A stretch of 64,000 bases of DNA from Cinnamomum chago. Its lineage: Eukaryota > Streptophyta > Magnoliopsida > Laurales > Lauraceae. The first letter of the stretch is position 1. The number at the start of each line of letters is the position of its first letter. The stretch spans positions 22,230,501-22,294,500 of the forward strand of contig CP142456.1 of assembly GCA_038049695.1 (NCBI GenBank), given 5' to 3'. A program made the translations under genes and the position numbers. The notes below the pieces were generated by a model. It saw only the letters and a list, made by a program, of their open reading frames with translations. It ran no database searches and was not told where the DNA came from. Positions 5,505 to 37,568 of the stretch are shown here, piece after piece.

Positions 5505-5513
5505 AAGAAAAAA

Positions 5514-5966: not shown

Positions 5967-6023
<57 letters not shown>
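5967..6023. repeat. (CT)n microsatellite
   Basis: An uninterrupted CT dinucleotide run of about 28 units. The long serine-leucine and arginine-glutamate open frames across it are artefacts of the repeat. Confidence 0.97.
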
Positions 6024-6025
<2 letters not shown>

Positions 6026-6151
6026 AGACGCATCCAGACTATCAAGGTCTCTCTCTCAAAGACACATCCAAACTATCAAGGTGGTCTCTAAAGAGGCAGA
6101 CCATATATGCACAGAACCCAGTCGATAATACCCATGGCAAGTACTAGATAT

Positions 6152-6343
6152 GTGAACCTCAAAGGATAGCTCAGTTGGCCTAGGACTACGGTTTGCACCC
6201 GGAGGTTGTGAGTTCGAAACTGCTCTACCACACTGGGGCCACAGGGGGATTTTATCCCGCTTTCTCTCCTGAGCCCGTAGGAATTATTCTGGTCCAAAAG
6301 GCTGTGAACCCTACATTATAAAATAAAAAAATAAAAAAAAAAG
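6152..6343 (+). mobile_element. tRNA-derived SINE with 12-bp TSD
   Basis: The 5' part resembles a tRNA with both internal pol III promoter boxes: an A-box-like block in GATAGCTCAGTTGG and a B-box-like block GAGTTCGAAACT. A tRNA-unrelated body follows, ending in an A-rich tail. Perfect 12-bp direct repeats AGTACTAGATAT bracket it at 6140-6151 and 6344-6355, the mark of LINE-assisted retroposition. It is not a functional tRNA gene because no acceptor stem can be formed. The intact long duplication suggests a fairly recent insertion. Confidence 0.9.
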
Positions 6344-6355
6344 AGTACTAGATAT

Positions 6356-7624: not shown

Positions 7625-7930
7625 TCATGTCCTCAGCAAATTTAGTGATTTAGCGTTTATAGCAAGTTTATGAACTGCTTCGTTACCCTCCCAGTCCACA
7701 TGAGCAACTTCATAACTAGTAAAATATTTTAATAGTTCTGTGGTATCGTCAATCACAATAAATTTGTAGTATGAGAGTTTAATCCGTCCACTATCTTCAA
7801 TAATCACTTTCATATGCAACCGACGCAATGCCGCTAAAGTTTCAATGTCCTCCGCTTCATCCATTTCATTCTGTATCTTAGTCATAGCCAAAATCATACT
7901 TTCAATGAGATAGGAACTTGCCAGTATGTC
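7625..7930 (-). pseudogene. LINE-type RNase H domain remnant
   Basis: The minus-strand frame ends with the pattern of the C-terminal half of plant RNase H-like domains found in LINEs (VAHVDWEGNEAVHKLA, compare the usual HV-R-N--AD-LA). The upstream part is much decayed and no reverse transcriptase is seen nearby, so this is a short relic. Alternatively it could be a remnant of a host RVT_3-type RNase H gene. The two cannot be told apart from this scrap. Confidence 0.6.
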
Positions 7931-7959
7931 CTACTCTCAATCCAGGGCTAAGAGATTCT

Positions 7960-9406
7960 TCCGGTCCATTCATATAAATCCACAAGCAGACTTATTTATA
8001 AATAATTAAAACTGCTCAAAATCATTTTCCACCATGTTATACCTACCCCAACTGATTAAGAGTTATTCTCTCACATGTTGATCACATATAAAATACATAA
8101 TTAATTTATAAAAGCAAACTTTCCTTTGTTGTAGCATTAACTTAAAATGCCCTCAATATAAGTATTGGTGTATGTTGTCGGGAGCTGATAGTAAGCCTCA
8201 TTGTGCAGTGAAAGAATTGAACATAACTAGAAAAGGAAATGAACTATTTTATAAAACTCGATTTATTTTTTGTTATAGACATGATCAATCTAAAAATGGA
8301 AGTAAGTTCAATTGAAATGAAACCAGAATACTATATAATAAGGTGGGATAGTGGCCTTCACTGATTTGATTTGCAGAGATAAGGTCACTGAAGAATTTAT
8401 TACAATGGACTCAGAAAATTCTCTAAGCCCAGACCCAAAAGGATCCCACCATTGATCAATTGGGAGCTATGGGCATGGCTACACCAGATTAATGGCATAA
8501 GACCTAATTTGAATGTGCCCCACTAATGGGAATTTCTAAATTACATGTGAAAGTGTGCCACATTCGTGGGGAAGGGTTCTCACAATCCGAGGAAAGAGAG
8601 GCAATAAGAAAAAGGAAATTGTCTGGGGCCCTTTCTGTAGAAAAAGGAAACAAGATGGAGAAAATCCAAATGTGAGGGTAATTTGGTACATGTCCAGGAA
8701 ATAAAGAACCTTTGGGAAAGGGGAGCCTTTATATCCATATTCATCTTTATACATGCAAAAAAAAAAAAAAAAAATATTGCTAGCATCCCCAGCTTTGAAT
8801 AGAGATTGGAGCCATCAGAACTGTGGGCCCCATCTGAAGCACTATCTCACTTCAGAGAGTGAAGTTCCCATATATCCCCCTCACATGACCACCACCCATC
8901 AGGGAGTTTGGGATCCCAATTGTAGCACTATCCTCACTTCAGAGAAAATATTCTTCTTTCTTGTCCATCACCCACAACAACTACTGAAGAAAACAAAACA
9001 AGCCCATGAAACATATGTGGAGATGTTGGTGATACTGGACAAATGAAAATGAGGTGGAGTAATTTTAAAGTGCAATAGTAATTTAGTATCATCACCTGTA
9101 CTCCAATTGGCAAAGTTTTTCAGTCTTGACCATCCAATTGATAGGGTTAAAAAAAATGCATCTCAGGGGATGAAAATGGTTGGGTTCGGGTCAGGTCCTT
9201 ACTGTGTCCAGATACTGACCCACATTACTAATATGGACCCGGGACCCTTACATGCCTTAGAACTAAGTTACAGCAGGACCTGTACAGGTACCCAGATTTA
9301 AATAAAAGCCCAATCCACCCTCAACCTGTGCATATTTTGTGGTTCTCTTAATGGAATTCTGCTTTACAAAAAATAAAAATAAAAATAAAAGATCTTAAAC
9401 GTGTGG

Positions 9407-9417
<11 letters not shown>
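7960..9417. other. Non-coding stretch, nothing recognised
   Basis: Mixed-composition DNA with an A-run at 8757-8775. No gene supported. Confidence 0.4.

Positions 9418-9473
<56 letters not shown>
9418..9473. repeat. (TA)n microsatellite
   Basis: About 28 uninterrupted TA units. The tyrosine-isoleucine frames over it are artefacts. Confidence 0.97.
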
Positions 9474-9479
<6 letters not shown>

Positions 9480-9652
9480 GGCATTGGGTATATTGCTTGT
9501 CGAGTATGAAATTCAGAGACTTGAACCCAGAGTTTAATCTTATTGGGTTACCCATACTCGGCCCTATATTTAGAATGGCTCCTTACCCGAGTGATAAGGA
9601 GCATCAATTCTTACCTGCCTGCCCGGGGTTTGAACCCCGGGTATGTCACATC

Positions 9653-11687
9653 TGTTAGGAATTTTGTAGATTGCAATTTGATGGATGCATTATCATTCTA
9701 GCATCATTTGATTTATACATGTGCATTGATTTATAAAAACTTGAAATCTTGTTTTATACATGCATTGGTTTTTAGACTTGAAGAAATATTGATTTATACA
9801 TGTTTTTGTTTTTAATCTTGGATGCATTTGTTTTTGAAAAATGAGTTTTAGAAAATCAAGCAAGCCATTGGTTTTATAATTTCGAATCTTTTTTGGCTTT
9901 TTATCTTTCATGTTTTAAAACCCTTAGAATGATTTAAAACATGTTTTTAAGCTTGATTTAATGGCCCAAAAAATTTCCAACCAAAAATACTTTGAAAAAT
10001 GGATTTTAGGGAATTTTGGTCCCAGGCCAGAAACGCAGTGTACCAGGTCGACCGAGCCAGGCCCAGGTCGACTGGGTATACTGTCGTTGGCTATTTTTCA
10101 AACGGTCACTTTTTTTACCGTTGTGAAGGCCAGGTCGACCGGGGAAGAGCCAGGTCGACCGAGGGACTAGCCGTTGGGCTGTTTTGGCTATAAATACTAG
10201 TTCATTCCTTTGCCAAAAGTTGAGGATTTTTAGACCTTCCTTGAGAGGTTTTGAGGCAAATCAAAGGGGAATGAACTAAGGGATGAAGGGGATCATTAGG
10301 AAAGCTAAAGCTTGGATTAATGAAGTTAAATCACCAAGTAGGCTCTACTTTCCTTAATCATATGTTTTCATGCTTTGTTTTATTTTTGGTAAATCTTTTG
10401 TATCATGATAAACTATGAGGTGTTGTGTCCTTAACATGTTTTATGTTTTGAATTGATTTATTGTTTTGGATACATCACCATTGATTCAATCCAAGTAGTA
10501 CTTTATTTGGTAAATCTAAGTAGATCATGTTAATGAAAGAATCTTTGAAATTATATGTAACATGATTCCTATACTTGGTTGAATCTATGGTTGTTGTTTT
10601 TCAACATAAGAAAATCACTTTCAAAACTATCTTATGTTTTGGATTCAACATCTTTACAAATCATATGTTTTTGTGTTTTGTTTTATCTTTGGTAAATCTT
10701 TAGTAGCATGTTAAACTATGATTTGTTGTGTCCTTAACATATTTATGTTTTGAATTGATCTATTGTTTTGGATGCATCACCATTTGATTCAATTCAAGTA
10801 GTACTTTATTTGGTAAATCTAAGTAGATCATGTTAATGAAAGAATCTTTGAAATTATATGTAACATGATTCCTATACTTGGTTGAATCTTTTGTTGTTGT
10901 TTTTCATCATAAGAAAATCTCTTTCAAATATATCTTATGTTTTGGATTCAACATCTTTACAAATCATATGTAACTTTGTTTTAAAGTTTCACAACTTGCT
11001 TTGCATTGATTGGTATATCATATTCAAGTTGTATTTATAATTACATATGATTTGTCCCCTAATTTCAATCAAATCTATTTTTATGTTTTGAGCTACATTG
11101 TTGATTTGATTGACATCCCTATGCATCACATGTTTAAAGCTAATTAATCTCATACAACTTGTGAATCTTTGAAATCATTAACAAGTTGTTACTTTTAACA
11201 TGTGACTTGCATTCCTTCCTCAATCATAAATGTTTTTAGGAGCTAAAACTTTCAAAAGCCTTAGGCATACATTTATGAGCTTTCATTTTCAAAATGATTG
11301 AGGACATCACACACTCACATCATGAGCATACATCTTTGCATTCATTTAGTGTTTGTGTGAGTTAGATTTTAATATCCGCCTATTTTAGAGGCAAATGTAA
11401 TGAGCTTAATTGAATCTCCATCAAGTGTATTTTAAACACTCATTAGAGAGATAACCAACCTTTGGTTGAAGAGGTTATTGCTTAGCCTAAGAAAAGCATA
11501 ATGTATAGGTTGATGTTAAGCCTTGAAAAACATTATTCTACAGGTTATTGCTTAGCCTATTGAAAAGCATATATTGTGGAAATCCGGTGGGGTGTTGGAT
11601 CACAAGCCGGTAGTGGATGTAGGCATTGAGGCCGAACCACTATAAATCCTTGTGTGATGGTACTTGCTTTGTGGTGATTGTTTTTAT
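9653..11687 (+). repeat. Left LTR, 5' portion
   Basis: Starts TGTTAGGAATTTTG. It is interrupted at 11687 by the CACTA transposon and resumes at 23709. It carries a cluster of CAGGTCGACCG-type motifs around 10045-10165 and an internal tandem duplication of about 302 bp (10358-10963). Confidence 0.92.
10189..10196 (+). promoter_or_regulatory. Putative LTR TATA box
   Basis: TATAAATA lies downstream of the repeated GTCGACC motif cluster and an inverted AACGGT/ACCGTT pair. The same box is present at the matching place in the right LTR (about 27467). This position fits an LTR promoter. The start of transcription is not shown. Confidence 0.5.
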
Positions 11688-11704
11688 CACTACAACAATT
11701 TGCA

Positions 11705-12110
11705 CTATTACCGGCGTTTTTTCCCGGCGCAAGCATTAAACGCCGGGAAAAATATAACTTTTACCGGCGAAAAAGCTGTTTTCGCCGGGAAAAAACTGAT
11801 TTTTTCCGGCGTCATATTATCGCCGGCAAAAGGCCGCTTTTTTCCGGCGATTTATTTTTTTCGCTAGCAAAGTTCCTTTTTCCCGGCGATTTATTTTTTT
11901 CGCCGGCAAAGGTAATTTACTTTTCCAGACATGGGTTAGTTTTTTGCCGGCGCATTTGTTTTTTCGCGCGGTAAAGTTATTACTTTTCCCGGCGTTCTAC
12001 CCATTTCACCGGCAAATGTCCTCCGTTCGCGCCTTCAATTGGGCCAGCGCGCGCTTATTTGGGTTAGGTGTTTTATAATTAGTTTTCCCGGCGCGAATTT
12101 TGCGCCGAGA
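11705..12110. repeat. CACTA-1 left subterminal repeat region
   Basis: Many direct and inverted copies of a short motif around TTTTTCCGGCG and CGCCGGGAAAA at intervals of roughly 20-40 bp. This is the typical arrangement of binding sites for a CACTA accessory protein. The same motif recurs at the other end of the element. Confidence 0.85.
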
Positions 12111-12490
12111 TTGTTATCATAAAACAACCCCTCTGCTTATACCCAAAGAAAACAAAAAACGAGCCGTTCTGCATCTCCCTCCTGCATAAGCAAAAAATCG
12201 CAACTCCCTCATTTCAAACACGTTCTGCATCTCCCTCCTCTCTCTGCATCTCGCCTCGTCCAGCCCATCTCGCAGAGCCTCACATCGCAAACTCATGATC
12301 ATTCCGAAGCGAGTCATGGGTGAGGAGTGAGTCGTGGACTCGGACGATTCGGACTCTCCTTTTTAACTCCTTGAAAAGGTCCAAAGGGCTTGCAAGAACA
12401 GAGAGAGTTCTGCAAAAAAAGAATAAACGCTTCCTCTTCATCTTCTCTGCCTTTCAACTTGTTTTTCTCTTTCTCATAGGAACTTCTCAC
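12111..12490 (+). other. Probable captured 5' flank and leader of CSN3
   Basis: CT-rich, plant-leader-like sequence lies directly upstream of the captured CSN3 start codon and downstream of the CACTA subterminal repeats. It may therefore be the promoter and 5' UTR taken along with exon 1. This is inferred from position and composition only. Confidence 0.4.
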
Positions 12491-12679
12491 ATGGATTCTG
12501 TTGAAACTGTGATAGCTCAGATTCAAGGGCTTTCAGGCTCTGTTGGTGATATCATCCATCTCAATGCAGTCTTGAATCAGGCCGATGAGACTCTGCAATC
12601 CCAATCACAGCGATTGGGGCCTTTTCTCGAGCAGCTGGACCCATCCAAGCATTGCCTTGGATATCTCTTTGTCTTGTAA
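12491..12679 (+). pseudogene. CSN3: Captured first exon of COP9 signalosome subunit 3
   Basis: The frame begins with MDSVETVIAQIQGLSG and runs through LGPFLEQLDPSKHCLGYL, matching the N terminus of plant CSN3 (FUS11), where the block QLDPSKHSLGYLYFLE is conserved. CSN3 is a PCI-domain subunit of the COP9 signalosome, which removes NEDD8 from cullins. Only about 60 of some 420 residues are here. The frame ends shortly after the LGYL block and no later CSN3 exon follows. It sits just inside the left subterminal repeats of CACTA-1 and keeps its own start codon, so it could supply a start to any fused transcript. Confidence 0.8.
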
Positions 12680-13468
12680 TCTTCTATCCCCCTTGTTCCT
12701 TTTTGTATTATAAATCTGTGATTTCTTGCATCTGGGGTTGCTGCGTTTTTGTGCTTTACTTATTGTATTTGCGCTCTTATTGTTTATATTAGAAGTGGGG
12801 TTTGATTCATTGTTGAGTTTATGCTTTGTATAAGTCATTTTTCTCGATTTGGGGTGTTGGGTTTTGCTCGAATTTGGTTGTTTTTGCTTGTGGGTTTTGG
12901 TTGATTATTGTTTGTGTGAAGTTTGGCTATTGTTTTGTCCATTATGTGACTGGAACAATAGCCTGTTGTGGTATTTGTTCTTTTCTTGTTATATTGAGGT
13001 TTGGTTATTGTTTTGTCCATTACATCTCATAAACATCAGCCTCTTGCGTTATTTGCACTTTTCTTCTTATATTAGAATTGGGTTTTTTGCTCATTGCTGT
13101 TTTTATGGAGTATTTGGATATGGGTTGCTGGTTGTTTTTGCTGGTGGGTTTGATCAATGATTGTTGCTTTTTTGTCTGGTTTTTGTTTTGGTCATTACGT
13201 CTTTCACAAATTGGAGGTGGTTTTTTGTTCATTGTTGTTTCTATTGAGTCTGTGGATTGTACAGGTCCTTTTCTCAATTTGGGGTGGTTGGGTTTTGATT
13301 GAATTCGGTTGTTTTTACTTGTGGGTTTTGGTCAATTACTTGCATCCAGGTGAAAAAGGCCAAGACCAACTTCCCTTTTTATTGTTTTGTATCTTGTAAT
13401 GAGAATGTTGTTTTTGGAATTAGCAGAGTTTTTTTGGTGCATCTTTTTAGTGTGTTGGGGTTTATTAG
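12680..13468. other. T-rich intron-like filler in CACTA-1
   Basis: T- and G-rich sequence with loosely repeated phrases such as GTTTTTGCTTGTGGG and TTGTTTTGTCCATTA, resembling a plant intron. No coding signal was seen on either strand. Confidence 0.45.
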
Positions 13469-13847
13469 GTGTTATAAGAAATCATGGTCTCCATGGTCGG
13501 ACGAGCCTGTGAAAGGAGATCCTAAGCATGTAGTGCCCGAATGTTATTACACTAAACAACCACCTCAGCTGCATGTATGTCATCATGACTGAATGAAACC
13601 TTTTGCTTTGAGTTTTATTATCTTTTGAGTCCTAACTCTGCTGTTGTGCCTGTAGCAAGGGTATTTTGCGAAGTTTCAGCTTGCAACCCTGTTTTATATC
13701 TTTTACAGGTAGAGTTCTTTGTTTCTTACATTAACTTTGCTGCACTCATCATCCTCAATGAATTAATTTTAGTACCTCCAACTGTAATCTTCTTTTTCTT
13801 CCCAGCATGCCAAAGGATGAGGCTCAACTTTATGCTACTATTGAACT
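13469..13847 (+). pseudogene. NOT2: Captured CCR4-NOT subunit 2 (NOT2) exons
   Basis: Three exon-like blocks with GT-AG borders: 13469-13574 (WSPWSDEPVKGDP, ECYYTKQPPQLH), 13656-13708 (QGYFAKFQLATLFYIF) and 13806-13847 (MPKDEAQLYATIEL). Read in order they follow the NOT2/3/5 box of plant NOT2 proteins, whose usual sequence includes CYYAKQPP, HQGYF and YSMPKDEAQLYAANELY. NOT2 is a scaffold subunit of the CCR4-NOT deadenylase. The C-terminal end of the box and the whole N-terminal half are absent. The introns are kept, so the capture was from genomic DNA and not from mRNA. Confidence 0.82.
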
Positions 13848-14058
13848 GTAAGTGCTTTTTTCACTCTCTCATATCCCCCAAGTCTGTTGACCATGAACAG
13901 CCCTTTAAAAGTCTGTTAGCACTAATGAAAAATGCTAAACAGGTTTCTAAATGCATGTTAGCTTATTCCCATTTATGTTTTGTAACCATGTTAAATACGA
14001 AGTTGCGGTTATATCATATCATGAGGCCTTTAGTTTGTTTCAAGTATCATATCTGTAG

Positions 14059-14560
14059 CAAGCCTATGGAGCACAATGGTGTCATTTTCCCTCCTCCATA
14101 CAAACCTCAGGGGATTAAGATGCTATACAATGGACATCCAGTTGATTTAACTCCAGAACAAGAAGAGGTGATGCTGAATATCTTTTATGATCTTGTACCA
14201 TTTTCACTATTTCTTTTCATTTCTTGTCATGTGATTCTTGTTGCTTCCACTTGTCACATTGCATGTGGCCCGTTGCCCTTGATAAATACATTTTATTCTT
14301 TACCTGCTGTTTTGATTTACTATTTTTTTTTTTTTTTGTATCTGCTGAAAGTATTAGTTCTGCAGGTAGCTACAATGTTTGCAGTGATGAAAGAAACGGA
14401 ATATGCAACAAAGCAGAAATTTATTGACAACTTCATGAACGACTGGAAAGTGCTACTTGGCCGAAACCATGTGATTAAGAAATTTGAGCTCTGTGATTCT
14501 ACCCCAATCTATGAGTGGCATGAGAGGGAGAAGGAAAAGAAAAAGCAAATGAGCACCGAG
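14059..14560 (+). pseudogene. TOP1: Captured DNA topoisomerase I exons
   Basis: Two exon blocks, 14059-14167 (EHNGVIFPPPYKPQGIKMLY, DLTPEQEEV) and 14366-14560 (ATMFAVMKETEYATKQKF, NDWKVLLGRNHVIKKFELCD, IYEWHEREKEKKKQMSTE), separated by an intron with GT-AG borders. They match the start of the conserved core of plant type IB topoisomerase I. The catalytic tyrosine domain, far downstream in the real protein, is absent, so no enzyme can result. The donor at 14560 (GAG|GTAAAT) is intact. The frame that runs through the intron is not meaningful. Confidence 0.9.
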
Positions 14561-15365
14561 GTAAATCAAGGTTTCCTTTAATTGATTTTAGATTAGAGTA
14601 AAACAGGGAGTTGTACAGTGTAAATTGATACATATGGAACTGGTGTATGTGAACAATGAACATTAGTTTAATGATATTGACTTGTTTTATGTCTTAGTGA
14701 AAAATAGATGTTTGTCTATGATACCTGGATACTTCAAAATTGGGAACGTATCCATATCATGTTGTCTCCCATACTTAAGATTTACATGTTAAATTTATGC
14801 CTAATAGCATCCATTGGAGTATCTTGTCTTTTGATAGGTAATATTAATAGAGATTTTGATTGAATTCTGAATTTTGGTAGGTACTACATTTTTGATATCT
14901 CTTACTTCCTCCAAGTATATCTGATATCTCTTACTTCCTGTTTTGGGAGCATGTAAAATTCTCCAAGTTTCCAGGGTTTTAATTCCTGTTTTTTGGAGGC
15001 TACTTTCCCTTACCACCTATTCCTTACTCCGCCTGAGGTTTCCTTGTTTCCTTCTTTTGTTTTGGCCTGATCCTAGGCTGTGGGATATCAGGGCCGTGGG
15101 AAATTCACTCCTTTCTGTTGCTCCCTGTTTTGTATCATTGGTTTCTTTGGCTGCCCAATCTGTGGACTTATTGCTGGCCTGGCTTGTGGGTATTTGCACT
15201 GGAACAAAATATATTCCAGTTGTGCCCCTCTAGGGAAGCTTGCATCAACAAACCAGGCCTCATTCATTTATATTTATATTTTTTATTTTTCATTTTAACT
15301 CCCTTTTAAGCTCTATATTATGCTTTTATAATTCATAAAAGAAATCCATTTTGTATGACTTTCAG
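14561..15365. other. Intron-like filler between captured exons
   Basis: Non-coding, intron-like sequence without recognised exons. Its origin (TOP1 intron or the next captured gene) cannot be fixed. Confidence 0.4.
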
Positions 15366-15472
15366 GTTAGGGGGTGATATAGCAAGGTCATTGATGTACA
15401 TGGCAGTCCGCTATGGTTTCTATCAACCTGGTGGTAGCCCCCACCTGCAACTCTCTAATTCACCAAGCATTG
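15366..15472 (+). pseudogene. Captured exon resembling plant endonuclease I family
   Basis: A block with a good acceptor (TTCAG) and donor (ATTG|GTACG) reads GDIARSLMYMAVRYGF and then YQPGG and LQLSNSPSI in one frame. The GD-AR---YM pattern is what I recall of the endonuclease I (PF04231) domain in plant proteins. Only about 35 residues are present, too few for activity. The identification rests on memory of this short motif and is less sure than those of TOP1 or CPN60. Confidence 0.55.
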
Positions 15473-16004
15473 GTACGTTGTAAAAACTTTGAAACAGTAT
15501 ATGTAAGTCACTATTTTAAGCAATTTGCAAAAGTTTATCTTGGCCATGGGTTAAAGTGAAAAATAGTAAAGGGTTCTGTAAATGGTACGTTTTCTGATGT
15601 ACCATGTGCATGCTTGTGTGCGTATAAAGCAATTGCAAAAGGTAATAATTTCCATAAATGTGTCTTGTTTCTAATCAATGTGGCCACATATAGGAGGGCA
15701 CAAACAGCCACGAGGAAGTGAACCAGTGAATAGCCTGATTAAGGGAAGTGGGGCCATTTGTGAGAGGGAGGGAGACCTATTTCTCTTGATTATCATACAT
15801 ATGTTATTTTTTTGAAAAAAAATGAACTGTTGCTTTGTGTTAGCTTCATGCGTTTTCTTTGTATGGTAAGTCTAGCTTCTTAGTGAATGAAGTATGAATG
15901 ACACTGGTTGGTGTAATTAATGGAGTAATGATGAAGAAATTGATGTCTTGATGGATCATGTTATGTTACTACTGAAGGCTGTTTGAAATCCAATTGTTTC
16001 TTAG

Positions 16005-16356
16005 GTTGAATTGGAGGACCCTGTTGAGAACATTGGTGCTAAGTTGGTGAGACAAGCTGCAGCAAAGACCAATGACTTGGCTGGGGATGGCACTACTACT
16101 TCTGTTGTTCTTGCGCAAAGTCTGATTACTGAAGGTGTTAAGGTCTGTGATATATTTCTCTTCCATGATTGTTGCTGAACCTGAGGAGTATTTGTTTCCC
16201 CTCTTTTTTTTTTAGAAATTCCAGCATTTTTGTACTAATTAGAAGCCAATGATCTGTCAGGTGATTGCAGCGGGTGCAAACCCTGTTCAGATCACTCGTG
16301 GCATTGAGAAAACCACCAAAGCTCTGGTGGCTGAGTTGAAGTTGATGTCCAAAGAG
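16005..16356 (+). pseudogene. CPN60B: Captured chloroplast chaperonin 60 beta exons
   Basis: Two exons with GT-AG borders: 16005-16142 ([43 protein letters not shown]) and 16261-16356 ([30 protein letters not shown]). This is the N-terminal equatorial region of GroEL-type chaperonins with the ATP-binding GDGTTT motif. The sequence follows the plant RuBisCO-binding subunit beta closely. The real protein has about 600 residues, including a transit peptide. Less than 80 are here. Both exons are free of stops, which suggests recent capture. Confidence 0.9.
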
Positions 16357-17812
16357 GTAAGTTGAATGCACATACATTTTTTTGGCCCGGACGATTGTTT
16401 ACTCGTGTAGCTGCAACTTAAATTGATTCTGATGGATGTTAGCGTACTTTCAAGATTTAAGTACAAAAAAAATGTTTATCTGCATCTAGTTGGGCTTAAA
16501 ACTGTCCTTGGTAGGTGTGGCAATGAGCTGGATCCTGGCCTGGCCTCTGTAAGCTAACTCTTTGGCTTAAGGTCCTAAAATTCAAACCTGGATATGTCCC
16601 TGAGGTGTGAAAGGTAGGCTGAACCTTTTATAACTGTTGATATGCCTGGATTCAGGGTTGGATAGAGAATATTGCCAAGCATAGGTCTGTATTCTCTTTT
16701 GTTAAGCTGGAAAATTAGGTCCAAGTGGGGCCTGAGTCCAGCAATTGACATGTTATGTATGGAAGCCGTGCCAACCTGATCCTGTGCCTGTAGTGTTATG
16801 CGCTCTGTTTGCTTTCATTAGTTCATTGACATCTTGACGCAGGCAATTGAAAGCCCTAGCCCTAATTAAATAGAAAACCAAAATTCCAGCCCTAAACCTA
16901 ATCAACAGTAAACAATGCAAGAAAACGAGGAGATAAAGTAGCACTGCTATCAGTGAATAATCCAATATTTTCTTCAATACCAGGAGAATGCATCAGTCCC
17001 AATGGAGAAGAAAGCTGAAAATAGTGTTCTATACAATGTCCAAAACTAGAAAAAAAACTAAAGAACTGCTGAAGAAAGAAATCGTCGACTCTTAGTCTCT
17101 TCTATATGTTTATTTGGCATGCCAACTATCCATTTCTCAACCGAGTCGGTTAAAGTTCCTAACTTAAATTGGCCCCCACATAAATCAAATTAAAGAAACT
17201 ATGGTAAGAACTGTCGAACCTGAATTTTGTTGTGCAAAGTCGCACGTCTGGGGCCCAAATGGCCCGCCTTTTGGACAAGGGGGCCTCATCAGTAAATAGT
17301 AGACTGATGGGCAACCCTGCTTGTATAAGGTTTGTGTGGGTTTGGGCCCATTTAGACCCATTTATTAAAGGCCCCCAAAACACTACACGTTCTGCCAATT
17401 TTTGTGGATTTTCTGGTTTTGCAAATACGCCGGCGCTAAATAATTTATTGCTACATAAAAAGTTATATATACTGAAATGGTAAAAGTTAATTTATTGCTA
17501 CATAAAAAAAATAAAAAAAACCAATTAGAAAATTACAATGAAATTTAAGAGTTAGTCACAAGTTGTTACTTCCTAATGTCATATGTGAACCTTTAAATCT
17601 ACCACACATGATTTTGTTTACATGGTAGTTTCTTCGGAACCTGTAAAATGGTTATGGACTGGCTTTGTCTGTTAGCCTTTCGTAGTGTTTTGTTGTAGTT
17701 GTCTACCTGTTTTAGAATTTTATGTCTTCACTTGCCTCTTTTAAAAGGTTGGTTAGTATTTTTTTATTGGTAGGAGCTAAAGAGTCACAGGAAAAGTGCT
17801 GGACAACTTCCA
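16357..17812. other. Non-coding filler in CACTA-1
   Basis: Contains intron-like and repeat-like sequence. Nothing with family motifs was found on either strand. Confidence 0.4.
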
Positions 17813-18260
17813 TTAGTACACTAAGAAACACAAGAAATACGGAAAAGAGGACATCCCAATCTTAAGCCAAAACCAAGCTTTGATGGGAAATTCCTTGCTT
17901 AGCCAATTGGTCTGCCGTTGAATTTTCACTCTAGTCCTCTTCACATGTGCAAATGATGCTTTAAGCATTTTTCCCAGATCAATTACTTCACCTGGTTCGC
18001 CAAAGCACAAGGAGTTCTACATAAACCTGACGCCTATGTAATTTGCAAAGAGAATCGCTTTCTACTATTAATCTTTGAAGGTTTAATCTGTGAGCCTCAA
18101 GGAAGCCTACACACATAGCTTCTACCTCTGTTATATTTAATGAACAGAAACCAGCTGAGCTTGAAAAATTATGGAAGTTCTCTAGTGCATCATGAATGAC
18201 CCCTCCCAAAACTTTCTGCACCTGGAATACCAATTGGACTTCTGTCAAAATCTTGCTTGC
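17813..18260 (-). pseudogene. LINE-type RNase H domain remnant inside CACTA-1
   Basis: The minus-strand frame shows the pattern of plant RNase H-like domains: GGVIHDALENFHNFS, then ITEVEAMCVGFLEAH, then LQRLIVESDSL. The acidic E and D positions of that fold are visible (E in TEVEA, D in VESDS). It lies opposite to every captured exon in this element and is probably a LINE relic swept in with genomic DNA. It is broken and lacks any reverse transcriptase. Confidence 0.65.
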
Positions 18261-18731
18261 AAACCCCCAATGGCGGGGGCCACCATCTGGGGAGGCATTG
18301 TGGCTTAAACAGGTTCAGATGCCCTGTTGCTGACTTAAGTTTATTCCTTCGGCAACTTTTAATAATGCATCATATTGTTGCCTATATCTATGAAATGTAA
18401 ATCATCTTTATTTTTCATATACGTTCTCAAGGATCAGCTGGCTTGTTGAATTTAATAGCGGTTTTATTGTCCTTGTATCTTATATGGACTTGTATTGATA
18501 CTGCCTGATTGTGTTGTTTCAAAGATTCTATTTGTTGATTTATTTCCTTTTCTTTTATCTTATGATGGGTTTAATAATATTGATTTTGGAGCATTTGCAC
18601 ATATTTTATGTATAACAACATATAACGTATTTGCAAAAAAGTTACTTGGTTGTTGTCATTGTATTGCCGCTTATGTTCTTTAAGGAGGCTGATTATAGGG
18701 ATTGGGGTCTGATATTTACTTGGTTTGTCAG

Positions 18732-18807
18732 CTTTTTCAATGCTGCTAGCTATGATCGGAAATGGTCTTATGGTCCCGCGTGCACTTTTTATTCGTGACT
18801 TCATGTG
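18732..18807 (+). pseudogene. MEX1: Captured exon of the plastid maltose transporter MEX1
   Basis: A short block with acceptor TTGTCAG and donor ATGTG|GTAC reads FSMLLAMIGNGLMVPRALF and then IRDFMW. This is a hallmark stretch of MEX1 (maltose excess protein 1), the chloroplast inner-envelope maltose exporter used in starch breakdown at night. Only one exon of about 25 residues is recognised. The neighbouring sequence looks like intron. Confidence 0.78.
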
Positions 18808-20153
18808 GTACTTCTTCTTTCCTTGGAATCTTCATATTATCATTGCAAATACAGATTATCATATTGCTATGGTTGTTCTCTTGATTTTCTAAGAATGACT
18901 GAATCTAGATGTTGAAATACTTGATTCTCGTAGCACATAGTGTATATTGGATTAGGAATATTTGGGATTTGGATAGCCTACAATTTGTGTTTCTCGAAAA
19001 ACTTATACCATAACAGGAATTTTGAGATGTTAGCAGCGACAACACCTAGTATATATTGTGCAAAACAATAATGACTATTATAATAATTTATAAGGCAGCG
19101 GTCAGTTTTCTTTATATAATCATCCTTAGCGGTCAGCTAAGTTACTTATCATATTGTTTATGATGATGGGATGGGATTTGAAGGAATTTTTCCCAATATG
19201 ATGAATATGTATATCTGAGATTTTGTATTGCACCTTTTCATATATGATTTTTTTTTTTTTTTTTACTGTGAGTTTTTTTTTCTTTGTTTTTTTATAGATC
19301 TGTTATCAACATTCTCATGGTGACAAGAATTTTGAAATGGATCCATGAGATTTAGGTGTGTATTGTGGGGATTTTGATATGGTTACTTCTAATGGTATCT
19401 GTTTTCTCATTTGTCTTGAAACTGGAGCTTTTGTAGTTAAAGAGATTCCTCTTTGAAAATTTTCATTTAACAACGATGGTAGTTGTGATGGGTTTGTGTG
19501 ATTCCATTTGCACAAGAAATTTTAATGGTGCTTTGAGACTTTTATAGTTAGAAAGACTTCATTTTGAACAAGAAAAAAAAAAAAAACAAAACCCTTTGCA
19601 TACAATCATTGGTGTTTGTGATGGGACTGCAGTATTTTGGCGGATTGGAACTTATTGGGAGAATGGGAATGAATAACTGCAGTATATTTACCATGTAACA
19701 AGTGGTAAATATAGTACAGTTTTCTATATTGTTTTGGGGGCTGTAAAGGCCAGAGACAGTAATGTATTTTATGTGATTTCTGAATTTCATGTAACCTTAA
19801 ATGCAATGGGAATGAATAACTGGCATCCAAATTGGATTAGCAATGATTGATATAAAGTCCCTTTTTTTATAGAGCAGTCTATTGCTTCAACAGACTGCAA
19901 TGAATGATATACAGTCCCTTTTTTTTCTTCTTAAGTAATAACCATTATAGTGATTATATTTTTCGTAACTGGGGAAGTATTCAAATGCACCTGTTGTTTG
20001 CGAATCCATAACACAGTACATGGTTATTTTGGAATGGATTTGACGGACTCCATTTTTTTACAAAGTTATATTTTCTTTAATGGAAGAATTTCAGAGTTAA
20101 TGTTGAAAATGCTACATAAGCTGAGGTTTAATGTTTGGAGACACTTTTTGCAG
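18808..20153. other. Non-coding filler in CACTA-1
   Basis: T-rich intron-like DNA with homopolymer runs. No exon recognised. Confidence 0.4.
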
Positions 20154-20522
20154 GATGCAAGGGGCAATGATGTGGATTTCAGCACGTACAAGGGAAAGGT
20201 TCTTTTGATTGTGAATGTTGCATCAAAATGGTAAATATATAGAACAAAGTTCCTTGTAGGGGATTGCAACTTATTTTTCCCTTCACACTCCAACAAAAAT
20301 CAAGCTTAATATTTGGTATATGAAATCACTGATACATTCTTTGGTTGTCCTCTTGTTTTCTCCTGAATACCAATTTCTTCTGTTTGTTACTTTTCTCTGA
20401 TTCTGATTAAGTTCTTTGTTTCTTTATCTTCTCTAACTTCTTGTTGCAGTGGATTGACCAACTCAAATTACACAGAGCTAGCTCAGCTATATGGGAAATA
20501 CTCACTCTCTTCAGCTCTGCTG
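20154..20522 (+). pseudogene. Captured glutathione peroxidase exons
   Basis: Exon 20154-20230 reads [20 protein letters not shown], then NVASK, and ends inside a codon. Exon 20450-20522 completes the codon to Cys and continues GLTNSNYTELAQLYGKYS. Together they are the N-terminal part of plant glutathione (thioredoxin-dependent) peroxidases, including the peroxidatic Cys of the NVAS-CG-T motif. The Gln-Trp part of the active site and the resolving Cys are missing. Acceptors and donors are intact. After GKYS the sequence departs from the family. Confidence 0.87.
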
Positions 20523-22394
20523 GTAAGTACTCACTCTCTTCAGCCCTTCTTTTAGTTTATTGTTTTGTAATTTTGTTCTAGTTTGTATGGGTTAGTGTGT
20601 CATTCCATGTTAAATCACCTTCCCAACTAATGCTCAGAATAATATATATGATGATTGCATGTTTCAATTATGGATGTCAGTCCAACTAGTTGTACTGCAA
20701 TATTAAGCAACCCACTTTTCTTTGTTGGCAATATTGGATTACATATTATATTTTACCTTTTTTTTTCTGTTTTGTTGTGGTCAATAAAATTTAGTGTATG
20801 TTTGGATGTTGTAATATGAGTTTGATTAGGGAAATGCAGAAAAAAAAAAAAAAAACCCTTCAATTACCAGCCTGTTGCAGTTTAATCTTCTCTTGTTATC
20901 TCAAGCCAAATTTGAAATGGATCCTTATCCTGCTCATTCTGTTTCATCATCCTCAGGGCATGTTTGGCATTTCCCTCTAGGCCCATTTGGGTTTATGTAT
21001 ATCATGTTGAAGTACCTTGGTTTACACATAATCATGAGTTCAGGCATTTGGATATCCCTGTTAGTTTGCTATGAATCCTATATCCAATCAGTGCTCATGG
21101 TGGATCTTGAAGCAAATAATCACAAAAAACCAAACTATACTAGAGTTCTGGCATGCTTCTATCCATGCTTGAACTTGAGTGGGAGTGTGATACGGATTTT
21201 CAAGATGATGAATCTTCTCCCATGCACCTCCCTCTTGTAACAAGGATGATGGCTTCCTCTTTGCTGAGTTGAGACTTGAAAGGGATAGAAGAGACTGGCC
21301 ATACTTATTTAGTTAACTTCCAATGAGATTTCTAGTCGATCAAGGTTCTCGAAACTATAGAGGTTTCCTTATTGGGATGTGGAGCTTGTAACTAATTAGG
21401 GAATAACTAATTATGGGGTAACAAGTTTTACAACAATTTTGAAACTCAAATGAGTAGTTGTTAGGAAACTCATGGGTCCCACTGTGGTTGTGTAGGATGA
21501 TACAAGGTCTAATCTGCAATCTCAAAAGCATGGAAATAAAATAAAATGATGATACAAGGTCATGAGATTACACTTACATTGAAAACACTCAATGTACAAC
21601 ATAACACCAATTATAAATACACAAAATAAGCCCCATTGAAGACTTTTTTGGAGCTTCAGTTGATTGATATATTACAATTCCCTGGGATGTGTTTTCCATG
21701 TATAGTTTATGATGCTGCTCCTCTCTGGTGCACTTGTCCAAGTGGACAGAAGTCAATGGAATGTTGTGTGATCATCTTTAGGCCTGTCTGCTGCATGTTT
21801 TGGTTATCTGAGATTCAGGGAATTTTTAGACCATTTGTTATTTAGCATAAATGGTAATGGATGGCATCTTTCCATCTGGAAAGTAGTTGCTAGTTGGCTT
21901 CATATTTTGTGACAACAGTTCATTTTGTTCTTTTTGTGGTAGATGAACTGCATAGATTCATTTATTCCATCCTTATTTATTTTGATTTTTCGTTGTCCTG
22001 TACAAAGATAGAAATACCTAATTCGTCTCTGAAAAATATTACCTGCAAGAGACCTTCCTAATTCCCATTCAGACCATTACCTATGGCGAACATTCTCGTA
22101 GTTTGTGCATTTCATTTTCAGGAAAATTTTGTGTCTTGAGTTAAACATGATGAGTGTACAGCCAGGTCATCAACATTAAAAAAAATAAAAAAAGTTGCTG
22201 ATCTGGTGGTACTGTGTTAAGTACCAAGAAAAAACAAAGCAGTTCCTGTTTGCCTTAATTACTCCCTAGATGCAGTGAATCTTCCTTATAAAGTTGTTCA
22301 TTCTAATTTAGCAATCATCTGAAAAATGTAATTCTATTGGGTGGTATGATATTCTTTAATCTTTTAGAATCATTTTCTTCTTTCCGAAATGTAG
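20523..22394. other. Non-coding filler in CACTA-1
   Basis: No recognised exon. Several open frames here lack motifs and splice support. Confidence 0.4.
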
Positions 22395-22742
22395 GTTCTA
22401 TTTGGATTGGAATATGCACATGCTGTTCAGAGTATCAAAGAAAAACTGGTAGTTGAATCTTCAATGTTTGGCAGTTCCAAGTATCCAGCACTTCATTATG
22501 CAGATGTCATGTGTTCAGTTATGAATCCATCAGATTATGACAAAGCACTAAAGGGGGAACTGGAGTCCTCCAATGGCTACACTTCTAATGGCAATCTGCT
22601 CAAGTGTGTGAACAACAACAATATTCTGAGTCCAGACAATTGCAAGCAAAATACTCTAACTATCACAAGCTATAACCTAGGAGGTCTGACATGGAGCTTG
22701 CCTCAAGAGCATAACATAACAGATTGCCATATGTTAAAATAG
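22395..22742 (+). pseudogene. Captured terminal exon of an unrecognised gene
   Basis: Follows a plausible acceptor (AAATGTAG). The open frame reads VLFGLEYAHAVQSIKEKL, then ESSMFGSSKYPALHYADVMC, NPSDYDKALKGELESSNG, and ends with a stop at 22740-22742. The amino acid mix is protein-like: balanced, with a predicted helix around AHAVQSIKEKL. The frame is as long and clean as a real exon. I do not recognise the family. Its place just before the right CACTA subterminal repeats suggests it gives the 3' end of any transcript that crosses the element. Confidence 0.55.
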
Positions 22743-23099
22743 GATGTATGAAGTTTTTTTGAACAATGTTGCAGGTGTTGGATTGGTGCAACAATGAGAT
22801 GATTGTATATGAAGATGTAATTTTTCATTGGCATTTGAATGTTGGCAAATAGTAGAATGTTAGCATGGATTTTTATTTTGTAATGGTAATGGTAAAGTAC
22901 TTTTAATATTGTAAGGATATTTGAATATTAATATGAAGTGGAATGAATATTTGGAATAGATAGATGTTGGGTGTGTAGGAGATTTGGTCTTAGATACTAG
23001 AATAGTAGTTTCATACAATACAGGTTGGAAGTTGTAATGATGCATATACAGGAAAAAAAAATTAAAAAATCAAATAAATACAATACATGAATATTGATT

Positions 23100-23695
23100 G
23101 CCGGCGCAACATTTTTGCCGGCAAAACACCTTCAAAATAATTACTTAAAAAAAATAAATGTTTTCCCGGCGACAAAATACGCCGGTAAAAAATTTTGGAA
23201 AATTAATTTTCAAAAAATATAAATGTTTTGCCGGCGCAAAAAAAACGCCGGCAATGAATTTTGAAAAAAAATCCATAAAATATAAATGTTTTGCCGGCGC
23301 AAAAAAAACGCCGGCAATAAATTTTGAAAAAAGAATCCATAAAATATAAATGTTTTGCCGGCGCAAAAAAAAAACGCCAGCAATAAATTTTGAAAAAAAA
23401 ATCCATAAAATATAATGTTTTGCCGGCGCAAAAAAACGCCGGCAAAAGTTTTTAATCAATTTATTATTGAAAAATAAAGGCATTTTCGCGGCGTTTTATA
23501 CCTCTTTTCCCGGCGAATAAAAACGCCATTAATGTATTATTTTTCCCGACGCTAACCTTTTTTCGCCGGCAAAAGTTATTGCTGGCGACCTTTTACCGGC
23601 GTATTGCCGGCGCAAGGAAAATCGCCGGCAAAGGTGTTCACCGGCGTTTTATAGACTTTTGCCGGCGCTTATTTAGCGCCGGGAAAAGTGTAATT
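23100..23695. repeat. CACTA-1 right subterminal tandem repeats
   Basis: Tandem units of about 60 bp (23210-23450), each with GTTTTGCCGGCGC, an A-run and CGCCGGCAA, followed by more scattered CCGGCG motifs up to the terminal inverted repeat. Motif content matches the left subterminal region. The repeated phenylalanine-rich frames are artefacts of this array. Confidence 0.9.
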
Positions 23696-23708
23696 TCTTG
23701 TAGTGTAT

Positions 23709-23849
23709 TAAGCTTCCGCATTTTATTTGATAATCATCACTTATGACTAGTTTAATTTAAGGAAGTTAAAATTTATCTTAATTGGTCATAATTGGAGCTC
23801 ACCCTATTCACCCCCCCCCCCCTCTAGGGTTCGGATCCCCGGACTTTTA
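23709..23849 (+). repeat. Left LTR, 3' portion
   Basis: Continuation of the left LTR after the CACTA insertion. It includes a 12-base C run (23811-23822) and the end GGATCCCCGGACTTTTA, followed at once by the tRNA primer site. Confidence 0.9.
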
Positions 23850-26800
23850 ATTGGTATCAGAGAGGGTTACTCCATTTTAGGGCTTAACAACCCGGAGTTG
23901 ATCCTTGGTAGATTAGAACCCTAGTGTTGTGATTTATTGCATATCTTTTTAAAGATTTCCACTATGTTTGAAAATGAAATTTCCCCTAGCTTCATTGCAC
24001 CACTCTAAGACTTGTTCAAGTTATATCTTCAAGAGTTGGTGAGTCCTCAAAGTGATCTCTCAAGGACATCCTTTTCAAGACCTTAGGTGAATCTTCATTG
24101 GTACACATTTAGACTAACCTTAAGGCCTTGATCCTCTCTAGACCAACCTATTATTTTTAGTTATATCTAATTGTTGGTCATGTTACATTTGCATTTTGTT
24201 TCTTTATAGTCACATCTTTTAAAATGCAATGTTTCTTTGTGATCATTTGATTTTGTCTTTATGAACTTTTAAGTTATATCTCATGGTTTTCAAAATCCTT
24301 TGATTGCAATAATTTCATGATGGATTTGCATTTTGTTCATATAGTCATATCTCTTGTAGTGCATATACATTCATGATCAATTGATTGTGATTACAAAAGC
24401 TTTCATAGATAGATTTTTCATGATCAAATGATGTCGGAAAATCATTTGATGAATGTCATAGTTAGATTTTTTTTTTTAAATCAAATGATTTGAAGCAATC
24501 TAAGTTTTCCATTGATCATTCAAGTTATATCTCTTGGTATGGAAAACATGTGTTCAATTTGTAGGAGTGTCTATTGTCATATTGAGAATACAAATTGAAA
24601 ATTTTATAATAGTACACTTCTTGTTTTTCAAAATCGCTTGCTCATAATTCTATAAATGATTCTTTGTTGGAATTTCATATATTGAAGTGATTTGAAAAAC
24701 TTTGGAAAATGTTCTAAGCTTTATTGGTGGTATTTATAGAAGCATTTTCCTTGAATCTATTTCCTTGTGCCTATTTATGATTATATCATTTGGAAGGAAA
24801 TAATTTTTACAAACAATTTGCATCCTTGCTCATTTAGTTATATTTCTTTTATGCAAATTGATTTTGATGACTTACATTGCATGGTTGGATATAGTTTCAT
24901 TAATTTGCATGTTTGTGCCTAACTTGGTATATATATTTTCATTAATGCAAATTGATGATTGTTTATGTGCTTTATAGTAAAATCTTGTATTTGAGCTTTT
25001 TAAAGTACATATGTGATTTTATGTGCCAAGTTCATTTGGTTTAAACCTCATGTCCATTTTCCATTGCATTGTAAGCTTAGTACATTTGCTTAGAGTGGAG
25101 ATGTTGCATGATAGATTGATCCATTTAACTTCATACATTCTTGTGCTTACATAGTTATATTCTTTATTGATGATATTGTATGAGTTAGATCTTGAGTGTT
25201 GATTGATCCTCTCTATTCAAATGTCAAATCGTTCTATGTATGGTTGTGTTATTCATTATATTTGTAGAAACCATACTAGAACTAAAATCCATCCTCTATG
25301 CTTTCTAGTTATATTTTTTTTTTATGGTTATGATGTTGATTCATGTACTTTCTCTAAGTGATATCATCCTTATACTTGTTTCAACATCATAGTAGTGATC
25401 TTGATCATATGAAACTCTTTGAAATTCATTCCTCGTATTTCTATATGTTTGATGGATATCTTAGATGTTGAATTCATATGATTTTGACACTTTGAAAATT
25501 GCATGCATTTTCAAGATTATATCCTTTTGCATTGCAATTTATCTTGTTCATCACTATGCTCATTAGTTATATCATTAAAAGTGATGAATATCCATTTATG
25601 TTGCTTAATGGAATTTTGTGTTTGTCACATCCTTGCTAGTAATCATGTTGTCATATTCAATTGGTTTCATTTGATATAATTTTCCATTGATTTCATATCC
25701 AATTGATGTCTTATCTTGTGAATGTGATAGACCTTGTGTACATTGGATTGAACTTGATAGTTATATGTTTTCATTCCATGTCACATTTCATTAGCATCAT
25801 AATTTTCATGCTTGCCACCTCTCTTGCTCATATAGGTATATCTCATGACCACCATGTTTATGTGTTCATAATATTGGTTGGTTATTAGTTGAGGTTAGCT
25901 TCATGCTTGAAATCTCATTTCACTCATCTTGCACATGATAGTCATATTTTTTTATTGAATGAAATGATTTCAAAGCTTACATAGCATATGATTTTCATAG
26001 TTAAATTGATTGATGCTATGATTTATAAACCCCATTTCATCATGGATAGCTCTAATTTGGATTTTTCCTAATAGTTATATTTTTAAATCCATTTTAGAGT
26101 GATTGTTTTAATAGACTTATCTTTGAATCTCAATTGGTATCCTTTGTTTTTCCAATTGGTATCCATGATTGCTTCTCTCATTAGACCTTGCTTTCTTTTG
26201 GTAATTTGATCATACTGAGCTTTATAGTTAAACGAATCTAAACCTTCTCTTGAAGTTGACTCTCAATTGGTTAAAACCATCCACTTCTTGAACCAAATAG
26301 TTATACCTTTGTCAAAAGTTTGACAAAAGAAGAGAATGGATTGAGGGGGAGTGTAAACCTTCATAGGAAGTATTAGTTTTGATCAAATTGACCCTTGGAT
26401 TGCCTTTGGACCCTTAGAAACTACTACCATACATGATCACCTATTATGTATTTCATATTTTTTTTTATTTCTTTTGTTAACAGGTACAACTAAAAGGTAT
26501 TTTCCTTATTTCATGTGTGTAGGTACCTTTGCAATTTAATGTCAAAGGGGGAGAGAGCATTCAAGTTCTCAAAAGGGTGAAGAGAATGTCCAAGCTTCCT
26601 AAGGGGAGATTTTGTATGATCTTCTACAGGGGGAGAGAATGCATATCTTGCCAAAGGGAGAGAAAGGCATGGTCAAAGGGGGAGAGCTAATAGAAGAAAT
26701 AAAGCTTGGAACTAAAGAAGATGCTTGGCCATAGAGAGGAAGAAGAAGAGAAAGCTTGAAGAATGATCAAGCACCAAGCATCAAGAAGATTGGAGAAAAA

Positions 26801-26931: not shown

Positions 26932-29109
26932 TGTTAGGAATTTTGTAGATTGCAATTTAATGGATGCATTATCATTCTAGCATCATTTGATTTACACATG
27001 TGCATTGATTTATAAAAACTTGAAATCTTGTTTTATACATGCATTGGTTTTTAGACTTGAAGAAATATTGATTTATGCATGTTTTTGTTTTTAATCTTGG
27101 ATGCATTTGTTTTTGAAAAATGAGTTTTAGAAAATCAAGCAAGCCATTGGTTTTATAATTTCGAATCTTTTTTGGCTTTTTATGTTTCATGTTTTAAAAC
27201 CCTTAGAATGATTTAAAACATGTTTTTAAGCTTGATTTAATGGCCCAAAAAATTTCCAACCAAAAATACTTTGAAAAATGGATTTTAGGGAATTTTGGTC
27301 CCAGGCCAGAAAGGCAGTGTACCAGGTCGACCGAGCCAGGCCCAAGTCGACCGGGTATACTGTCGTTGGCCATTTTTCAAACGGTCACTTTTTTTACCGT
27401 TGTGAAGGCCAGGTCGACCGGGGAAGAGCCAGGTCGACCGAGGGACTAGCCGTTGGGCTGTTTTGGCTATAAATACTAGTTCATTCCTTTACCAAAAGTT
27501 GAGGATTTTTAGACCTTCCTTGAGAGGTTTTGAGGCAAATCAAAGGGGAATGAACTAAGGGATGAAGGGGATCATTAGGAAAGCTAAAGCTTGGATTAAT
27601 GAAGTTAAATCACCAAGTAGACTCTACTTTCCTTAATCATATGTTTTCATGCTTTGTTTTATTTTTGGTAAATCTTTTGTATCATGATAAACTATGAGGT
27701 GTTGTGTCCTTAACATGTTTTATGTTTTGAATTGATTTATTGTTTTGGATACATCACCATTGATTCAATACAAGTAGTACTTTATTTGGTAAATCTAAGT
27801 AGATCATGTTAATGAAAGAATCTTTGAAATTATATGTAACATGATTCCTATACTTGGTTGAATCTATGGTTGTTGTTTTTCAACATAAGAAAATCACTTT
27901 CAAAACTATCTTATGTTTTGGATTCAACATCTTTACAAATCATATGTTTTCATGTTTTGTTTTATCTTTGGTAAATCTTTAGTAGCATGTTAAACTATGA
28001 TTTGTTGTGTCCTTAACATATTTATGTTTTGAATTGATCTATTGTTTTGGATGCATCACCATTTGATTCAATTCAAGTAGTACTTTATTTGGTAAATCTA
28101 AGTAGATCATGTTAATGAAAGAATCTTTGAAATTATATGTAACATGATTCCTATACTTGGTTGAATCTTTTGTTGTTGTTTTTCATCATAAGAAAATCTC
28201 TTTCAAATATATCTTATGTTTTGGATTCAACATCTTTACAAATCATATGTAACTTTGTTTTAAAGTTTCACAACTTGCTTTGCATTGATTGGTATATCAT
28301 ATTCAAGTTGTATTTATAATTACATATGATTTGTCCCCTAATTTCAATCAAATCTATTTTTATGTTTTGAGCTACATTGTTGATTTGATTGACATCCCTA
28401 TGCATCACATGTTTAGAGCTAATTAATCTCATACAACTTGTGAATCTTTGATATCATTAACAAGTTGTTACTTTTAACATGTGACTTGCATTCCTTCATC
28501 AATCATAAATGTTTTTATGAGCTAAAACTTTCAAAAGCCTTAGGCATACATTTATGAGCTTTCATTTTCAAAATGATTGAGGACATCATACACACACACA
28601 TCATGAGCATACATCTTTGCATTCATTTAGTGTTTGTGTGAGTTAGATTTTAATATCCGCCTATTTTAGAGGCAAATGTAATGAGCTTAATTGAATCTCC
28701 ATCAAGTGTATTTTAGACACTCATTAGAGAGATAACCAACCTTTGGTTGAAGAGGTTATTGCTTAGCCTAAGAAAAGCATAATGTATAGGTTGGTGTTAA
28801 GCCTTGAAAAACATTATTGTAAAGGTTATTGCTTAGCCTATTGAAAAGCATATATTGTGGAAATCCGGTGGGGTGTTGGATCACAAGCCGGTAGTGGATG
28901 TAGGCATTGAGGCCGAACCACTATAAATCCTTTTGTGATGGTGCTTGTTTTGTGGTGATTGTTTTTATTAAGCTTCTGCATTTTATTTGATAATCATCAC
29001 TTATGACTAGTTTAATTTAAGGAAGTTAAAATTTATCTTAATTGGTCATAATTGGAGCTCACCCTATTCACCCCCCCCCCCCTCCAGGGTTCGGATCCCC
29101 GGACTTTCA
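26932..29109 (+). repeat. Right LTR of the Sirevirus-like element
   Basis: Uninterrupted 2178-bp LTR from TGTTAGGAATTTTG to GGACTTTCA. It carries the same 302-bp internal tandem duplication and 12-base C run (29071-29082) as the left LTR. It shows the empty CACTA site (TTTTTATTAAGC). Confidence 0.93.
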
Positions 29110-29114
29110 ACATC

Positions 29115-37534: not shown

Positions 37535-37568
<34 letters not shown>

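Follow-up and report, generated by a model that had tools for sequence, protein, structure and literature searches.

The 64,000-nt stretch of Cinnamomum chago DNA analyzed here (C6:22230501-22294500, in the following called the window) contains at positions 11688-23705 one non-autonomous CACTA (En/Spm-type) transposon of 12 kb, in which pieces of several host genes are lined up.

Termini and insertion site of the element

The element begins with CACTACAA at 11688 and ends with TTGTAGTG at 23705, and the imperfect match of these terminal inverted repeats (TIRs) runs on inward. It is flanked on either side by the 3-bp target-site duplication (TSD) TAT, which was read in the sequence at 11685-11687 and 23706-23708. 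Both ends contain subterminal arrays of the motif CCGGCG in both orientations. The left TIR with its array (11688-12120, plus strand) has 13 copies of CCGGCG or CGCCGG in 433 bp, and the right array with its TIR (23091-23705, minus strand) has 18 in 615 bp. About one copy would be expected at each end: 500 first-order Markov simulations per element end yielded means of 0.9 for the left and 1.0 for the right end, with a maximum of 5.

The insertion site is the left long terminal repeat (LTR1) of a retrotransposon. The 5' part of LTR1 (9653-11687, plus strand) is interrupted by the element and resumes at 23706-23850. The right LTR (LTR2; 26932-29110, plus strand) is uninterrupted at this point, with TAT at 28966-28968, and represents the empty site. 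The long part of LTR1 is 98.7% identical to LTR2 26932-28968 over 2037 aligned positions. A preliminary description of the window had already named the CACTA termini, the TAT duplication and the CCGGCG arrays, and had stated that the empty site in the sister LTR fixes both borders. The quantification of the motifs and the alignment of the LTRs bear this out, as LTR2 passes straight over the insertion point.

Transposase genes define the autonomous members of CACTA families only. No Pfam domain of a TnpA/TnpD-type transposase was detected in the 26 plus-strand and 22 minus-strand open reading frames (ORFs) scanned within the element, which were drawn from 240 listed ORFs of at least 30 amino acids, and the element was therefore classified as non-autonomous.

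Gene pieces within the element

The preliminary description had proposed that the element contains exons of at least seven unrelated host genes and one unknown exon. Database support for these pieces was not uniform. Four of them (CSN3, TOP1, CPN60 beta, and glutathione peroxidase, GPX) were well supported and match real genes, whereas one turned out to be weak, two were without database support, and one stayed without a name.

The CSN3 piece (12274-13356, plus strand) comprises the upstream region with the 5' untranslated region, exon 1 (12491-12675), and part of intron 1. The exon matched PDB entry 9is6 (E = 5e-8), and its Pfam match (1.3e-4) was below the Pfam cut-off. A search of the genome (1.06 Gb in 14 contigs) revealed the source of the piece at C1:4.994 Mb, with 97.4% identity over a 1089-bp alignment that includes the intron. 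The 19 mismatches in 1080 columns are distributed over the upstream region (3/218), the coding region (2/183), and the intron (14/679). One breakpoint of the capture lies within the intron and one upstream of the gene, and the locus resumes CSN3 about 3 kb downstream (Pfam 5e-20, profile positions 86-171). Among the best 40 of 70 candidates, the piece was present in seven other copies and in the gene. Of all pieces in the element, CSN3 seems to have been captured most recently.

The TOP1 module (plus strand, mapped from 14067 to 14640) contains two exons (about 14059-14167 and 14366-14560, edges set by eye) and the intron between them, and the first exon begins at the module joint. The two exons matched TOP1 in Pfam (3e-28) and in PDB (2.7e-20), so this assignment could be retained.

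For CPN60 beta, two exons (16005-16142 and 16261-16356, plus strand) were recognized, with Pfam values of 9e-9 for the first and 0.012 for the second. The best PDB match was chaperonin 60B1 (5cdi, E = 6.7e-16), in agreement with the proposed identity. The stretch used as a query (15640-16940) was found in 20 other places with 97-99% identity (40 of 44 candidates scored). The nearest CPN60 gene, at C1:88.92 Mb, matches at the two exons only, with 90% and 86% identity. The comparison of the exons (window 15995-16371) with this gene gave a synonymous divergence (Ks) of 0.32 and a nonsynonymous divergence (Ka) of 0.028 over 240 coding bases. The low Ka/Ks is indicative of selection on both lineages for most of the time, and therefore, the piece probably derives from a different CPN60 gene, which may have been lost, may be absent from the assembly, or may be foreign to this genome.

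The GPX piece (19133-20501, plus strand) contains one complete exon, placed by eye at 20154-20230, and the first part of a second one. The Pfam value of the window exon was 6.9e-5, below the Pfam cut-off, and the next two exons, which are present in longer sister copies of the element, gave 3e-18 when joined. The source is a tandem GPX locus at C9:9.19-9.28 Mb, where window positions 19133-20501 were matched at 9.276 Mb (best, 97%), 9.237 Mb, and 9.188 Mb. At 9.237 Mb an apparent GPX exon 1 lies upstream. At 9.188 Mb the gene extends beyond the captured stretch: a further exon follows there and fits the last 16 positions of the profile, just where the match of the captured exons stops (a weak match, E = 0.13). 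That the C9 places might themselves be copies of the element was considered, and the flanking sequence showed gene exons. Among the best 40 of 51 candidates scored, 15 places matched window positions 19900-20501, including three at the C9 gene locus, and 24 matched the adjoining piece 20512-20900. Exons were aligned with gene loci for CSN3, GPX, and CPN60, and source loci were obtained for the former two.

The remaining pieces were more difficult to name. The module at 13351-14049 (plus strand; edges derived from partial matches elsewhere) contains a supposed NOT2 exon (13479-13574) with AG and GT at its edges. This exon looks NOT2-like, a name that found no confirmation in Pfam, PDB, or a protein search. 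A possible endonuclease-I-like exon at 15310-15483 (plus strand) yielded a weak match to PF04231 (E = 0.021, below the cut-off). The module at 18722-19120 (plus strand) includes part of an ORF (18616-18798) that we took for the proposed MEX1 exon, to which the preliminary description assigned no coordinates. The name gained no support, as the ORF had no match in PDB or in a protein search and its best Pfam match was unrelated (E = 0.45); the ORF straddles the module joint 18713/18722, which makes the test weak. The neighboring plus-strand ORFs starting at 18401, 18459, 18713, and 18934 had no Pfam match either. Besides the sister copies, 14 places matched 18722-19120 alone, wholly or partly (best 40 of 52 candidates scored). 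On the opposite strand, the ORF at 17988-18314 resembles a remnant of a long interspersed nuclear element (LINE) RNase H, and it had no Pfam match.

The 3' module (22274-23090, plus strand) contains the exon that had been called unknown (22395-22742). The exon has 11 homologues with 38-92% identity, and no name could be obtained for it from Pfam or PDB, also with an alignment profile; it may be DPH2-like. The exon is part of a module that, from about 22274 onward, was found whole or nearly whole in all 39 other scored places (661 first-look candidates). Among the ten copies fetched from the genome (see below), it is whole in three (c02, c03, and c11). The module thus appears to be widespread, not general.

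Related copies in the genome

The left 401 bp of the element were used as a query for the detection of sister copies. This gave 601 first-look candidates, and the best 40, the element itself included, all matched at ≥88%. Apart from the element itself, this left 39 left ends, and for the ten that scored best, 20 kb around and rightward of the end were fetched. The copies at C4:41.3 and C4:63.55 Mb contain nearly the whole element between their own ends, with a body of about 99% identity. Their right ends lie 16.8 kb (C4:41.3) and 14.0 kb (C4:63.55) from the left ends, and the C4:41.3 copy carries an additional 3-kb insert. In the long body alignments, 50 substitutions in 10,270 positions separate the window copy from the C4:41.3 copy. 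At C9:50.72-50.74 Mb, where the left end and the interior were inspected, the left end is present and all six answered internal queries gave plus-strand matches that follow the order of the window element (50.723-50.736 Mb). Perfect 3-bp TSDs were found in 7 of the 11 copies inspected, including the window copy. Neither of the two outcomes that would have refuted the preliminary description was observed: the sisters, whose detection had been proposed as a check, keep both ends together, and the four supported exon sets match real genes.

The comparison with the two C4 copies also revealed an internal deletion. At 20501-20512 (element positions 8814-8825), the window copy has a scar where about 1.9 kb, including the next GPX exon, are present in C4:63.55 and C4:41.3, so that the GPX piece is cut in the window copy. 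To judge from these sisters, the window copy arose by deletion from a longer element, which had about 14 kb and contained more of the GPX gene.

The fetched copies have terminal regions in common and differ in their interiors. Three of them (c08-c10, at C5:24.15, C11:35.8, and C7:6.99 Mb) form a second type of 8.7 kb, here called type B, and are 99.3% alike. They hold exons of a class III peroxidase (Pfam 3.4e-21) together with other cargo, of which some pieces, in the same direction as the peroxidase, look like the TOP1 N-terminus and SPT2.

Several copies have peculiarities of their own. The C10:32.48 Mb copy is 99% like the window element in its left 7.2 kb, and its right half contains gag-like retrotransposon ORFs, as judged by eye. 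In c07 (C10:43.50 Mb), the right end and its flank are duplicated in tandem. Copy c11 (C10:43.74 Mb) has the longest captured GPX piece, which begins in an intron near the gene start, includes three exons, and ends in the intron that follows the third. A short redoxin-like-looking stretch (GKVWKLDDFESYPALL) separates the GPX part of this copy from its 3' part, and the 24 residues of this stretch had no match in Pfam.

Recurrence and exchange of modules

About 12-26 other places in the genome contain the NOT2-labelled, TOP1, CPN60, GPX, or "MEX1" piece, each in different company, and module edges are used repeatedly (14049/14067, 18713/18722, 19120/19133, and 22274). The first of these edges may serve as an example. 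Among the best 40 of 265 candidates, 13 places had the NOT2-labelled piece (13440-14049) but no TOP1 piece, 19 had the TOP1 piece (14067-14640) but no NOT2-labelled piece, and 7 sisters had both.

In two hybrid copies, c06 (C4:63.64 Mb) and c07, a left part of the window type is joined to the right 3.5 kb of the second type. In c06, the left 5.3 kb match the window type, and positions 6043-9588 correspond to positions 5156-8701 of c08 with 99.2% identity. A block of 135 bp (window 15061-15195, plus strand) is common to the window element and the otherwise different type-B copies (97.0-99.3%). Recombination within this block was considered as the origin of c06 and c07 and was rejected, because in the letters the two types meet where the block begins on its left side. 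Copy c11 contains the GPX part and lacks the part from CSN3 to CPN60. As the pieces recur elsewhere in other combinations, most of them were probably inherited or exchanged as modules and were not packed serially by this element. Of the earlier proposal, the single element with exons of unrelated host genes could be upheld, and introns have indeed been kept, but for most pieces the serial packing by this element is improbable.

Direction, splice sites, and coding potential

All supported exons (CSN3, TOP1, CPN60, GPX, the 3' exon, and the peroxidase of the second type) have the same direction, and this 6/6 becomes 10/10 if the less certain NOT2, endonuclease, SPT2, and TOP1 N-terminal names are counted. 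The two-sided binomial p values are 0.03 and 0.002, respectively, with the reservation that the two TOP1 pieces may be one capture and that the second type was scanned on plus-strand ORFs only. Antisense host exons were not detected among 22 minus-strand ORFs of the window element (best Pfam E = 0.085). GT or AG is present at the edges of the CSN3, NOT2-labelled, and CPN60 exons, and GT/AG was recognized by eye at the inner TOP1 edges, where the second TOP1 exon ends, and at the first GPX exon, so that the splice sites seem usable. The uniform direction of fragments of independent genes might, on a tentative view, reflect a preference for sense pieces that can be spliced, either when pieces are captured or in their survival. 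The intron sequences aligned to the CSN3 and GPX loci, which points to capture at the DNA level.

A coding chimera was considered and found no support. With its 185 nt, CSN3 exon 1 shifts the reading frame of the exon that follows, and stops are reached when the CSN3, NOT2, and CPN60 exons are joined, in a test that was made without TOP1 and GPX. Therefore, exons in that order do not encode a meaningful fusion protein.

Origin of the element

In our view the element is very probably a non-autonomous CACTA transposon with fragments of multiple genes, the modules of which were exchanged between elements, with CSN3 added last. Each module would have been captured as DNA, either during the repair of a break left by excision or insertion, through gap repair or end joining, or by the fusion of neighboring copies. 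Later, elements would have swapped modules, and CSN3 would have been added at the end. An ancestor of about 14 kb may then have undergone the internal deletion that gave rise to the window copy, which jumped into the LTR, presumably moved by the transposase of an unseen autonomous relative. If the element is transcribed, its pieces might serve as cassette exons and not as a coherent protein gene. A more far-reaching notion, which we offer tentatively and consider rather doubtful, is that of a mobile exon library, in which modules once captured pass between elements in sense direction and spliceable form and are joined by fresh captures such as CSN3.

The serial capture of at least seven genes by this very element appears quite unlikely. 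It would account for the several host-gene pieces in one element, two of them with located sources, and for the occurrence of the CSN3 piece in this lineage only among the 40 scored of 70 candidates, but not for the recurrence of the five other pieces in other combinations or for c11, with its GPX part and without the part from CSN3 to CPN60. That the array is an expressed chimeric gene under selection would seem very improbable. The common direction of the supported exons, the splice sites kept wherever they were read, and the upstream region and start codon supplied by CSN3 are as this idea would predict; however, the shifted frame after CSN3 exon 1 and the subsequent stops (TOP1 and GPX being outside the joined test), the great variation of content among the copies, and the cut GPX piece speak against it. 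The least probable alternative is that several neighboring or nested elements and gene pieces were mistaken for one. The CCGGCG motifs are indeed inverted at both ends, and composite copies exist, as the duplicated right end of c07 illustrates, yet the empty site spans exactly the 12 kb of the element, and each of the sisters has a single left and a single right end with the pieces in unchanged order between them, which refutes this alternative.

Some observations weigh against a multi-gene-fragment element with exchanged modules. The edges of the CPN60 piece differ from place to place. The TSD is absent in c11, is imperfect in c06, and, as read by eye, fits in c03 only on the assumption that its last base has changed; c04 enters the tally of 11 copies with its left end. 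An autonomous partner was not found, and no genome-wide search for one was made. The names of three donors rest on weak or absent database evidence, and one of the NOT2 or TOP1 places could be the gene itself. That most of the other module-sharing places lie within CACTA copies we infer from the shared edges and, for some, from nearby left ends.

Comparison with known systems

Several published systems resemble the window family. The soybean CACTA element Tgm-Express1, 5.7 kb in one described insertion, carries parts of five unrelated genes, exons as well as introns, and its pieces are spliced as cassette exons when the host gene is transcribed (PMC1947982). The window element likewise contains exons and introns of unrelated genes; in contrast to Tgm-Express1, it is 12 kb long, with sisters of about 14 kb, and belongs to a family of many copies in which the pieces occur in many combinations. 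The Tpn1 family of Ipomoea nil comprises 339 non-autonomous copies with a mean of 7.1 kb and a maximum of 40.6 kb, in which conserved ends and 3-bp TSDs enclose interiors replaced by captured host genes (PMC5105172). Hundreds of non-autonomous copies (here candidates), conserved ends, captured host genes inside, and 3-bp TSDs are common to both families. The terminal sequence of Tpn1 differs from that of the window element. Module exchange, as seen in the window family, is not described between Tpn1 copies in the portion of PMC5105172 concerned.

For wheat chromosome 3B, with the CACTA families Vincent and TAT, 145 genes in 140 CACTA capture events are described, and an exonuclease piece common to two wheat families was read as a recent exchange of DNA (PMC4290129). 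This is about one gene per event, whereas the window family has several pieces per element, which were recombined repeatedly. Helitrons are rolling-circle elements without TIRs or a TSD. In maize, they contain 0 to 12 gene fragments per element, which were acquired stepwise and can be traced in related copies (PMC3288121). The window family is similar in having several gene fragments per element that are traceable through related copies. Pack-CACTA (Pack-TYPE) elements have CACTACAA ends and coding DNA from more than one locus, with most loci per element in maize (PMC8903248). Both features are shared by the window element, and the portion of PMC8903248 concerned contains no single element so arranged. 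Taken together, the window element belongs to the already known kind represented by Tgm-Express1, Tpn1, and Pack-CACTA, with an unusually clear modular exchange.

With module edges, donor loci, and hybrid copies available in one genome, individual events of capture and exchange in a CACTA family can be placed in order. This is relevant to the question of how these elements gather gene pieces. One consequence is that the number of exons in one element overstates the number of captures made by that element.

Other features of the window

A third, more diverged copy of the hosting LTR is present at 35804-37550, with 67-86% identity in pieces. Two tandem arrays were found at 34015-35359 and 54472-55124, and their units measure, as a very rough estimate, 350 and 175 bp. 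In addition, the window contains large palindromes at 4934-5450 and 31279-31595, perhaps foldback elements or elements similar to miniature inverted-repeat transposable elements (MITEs).

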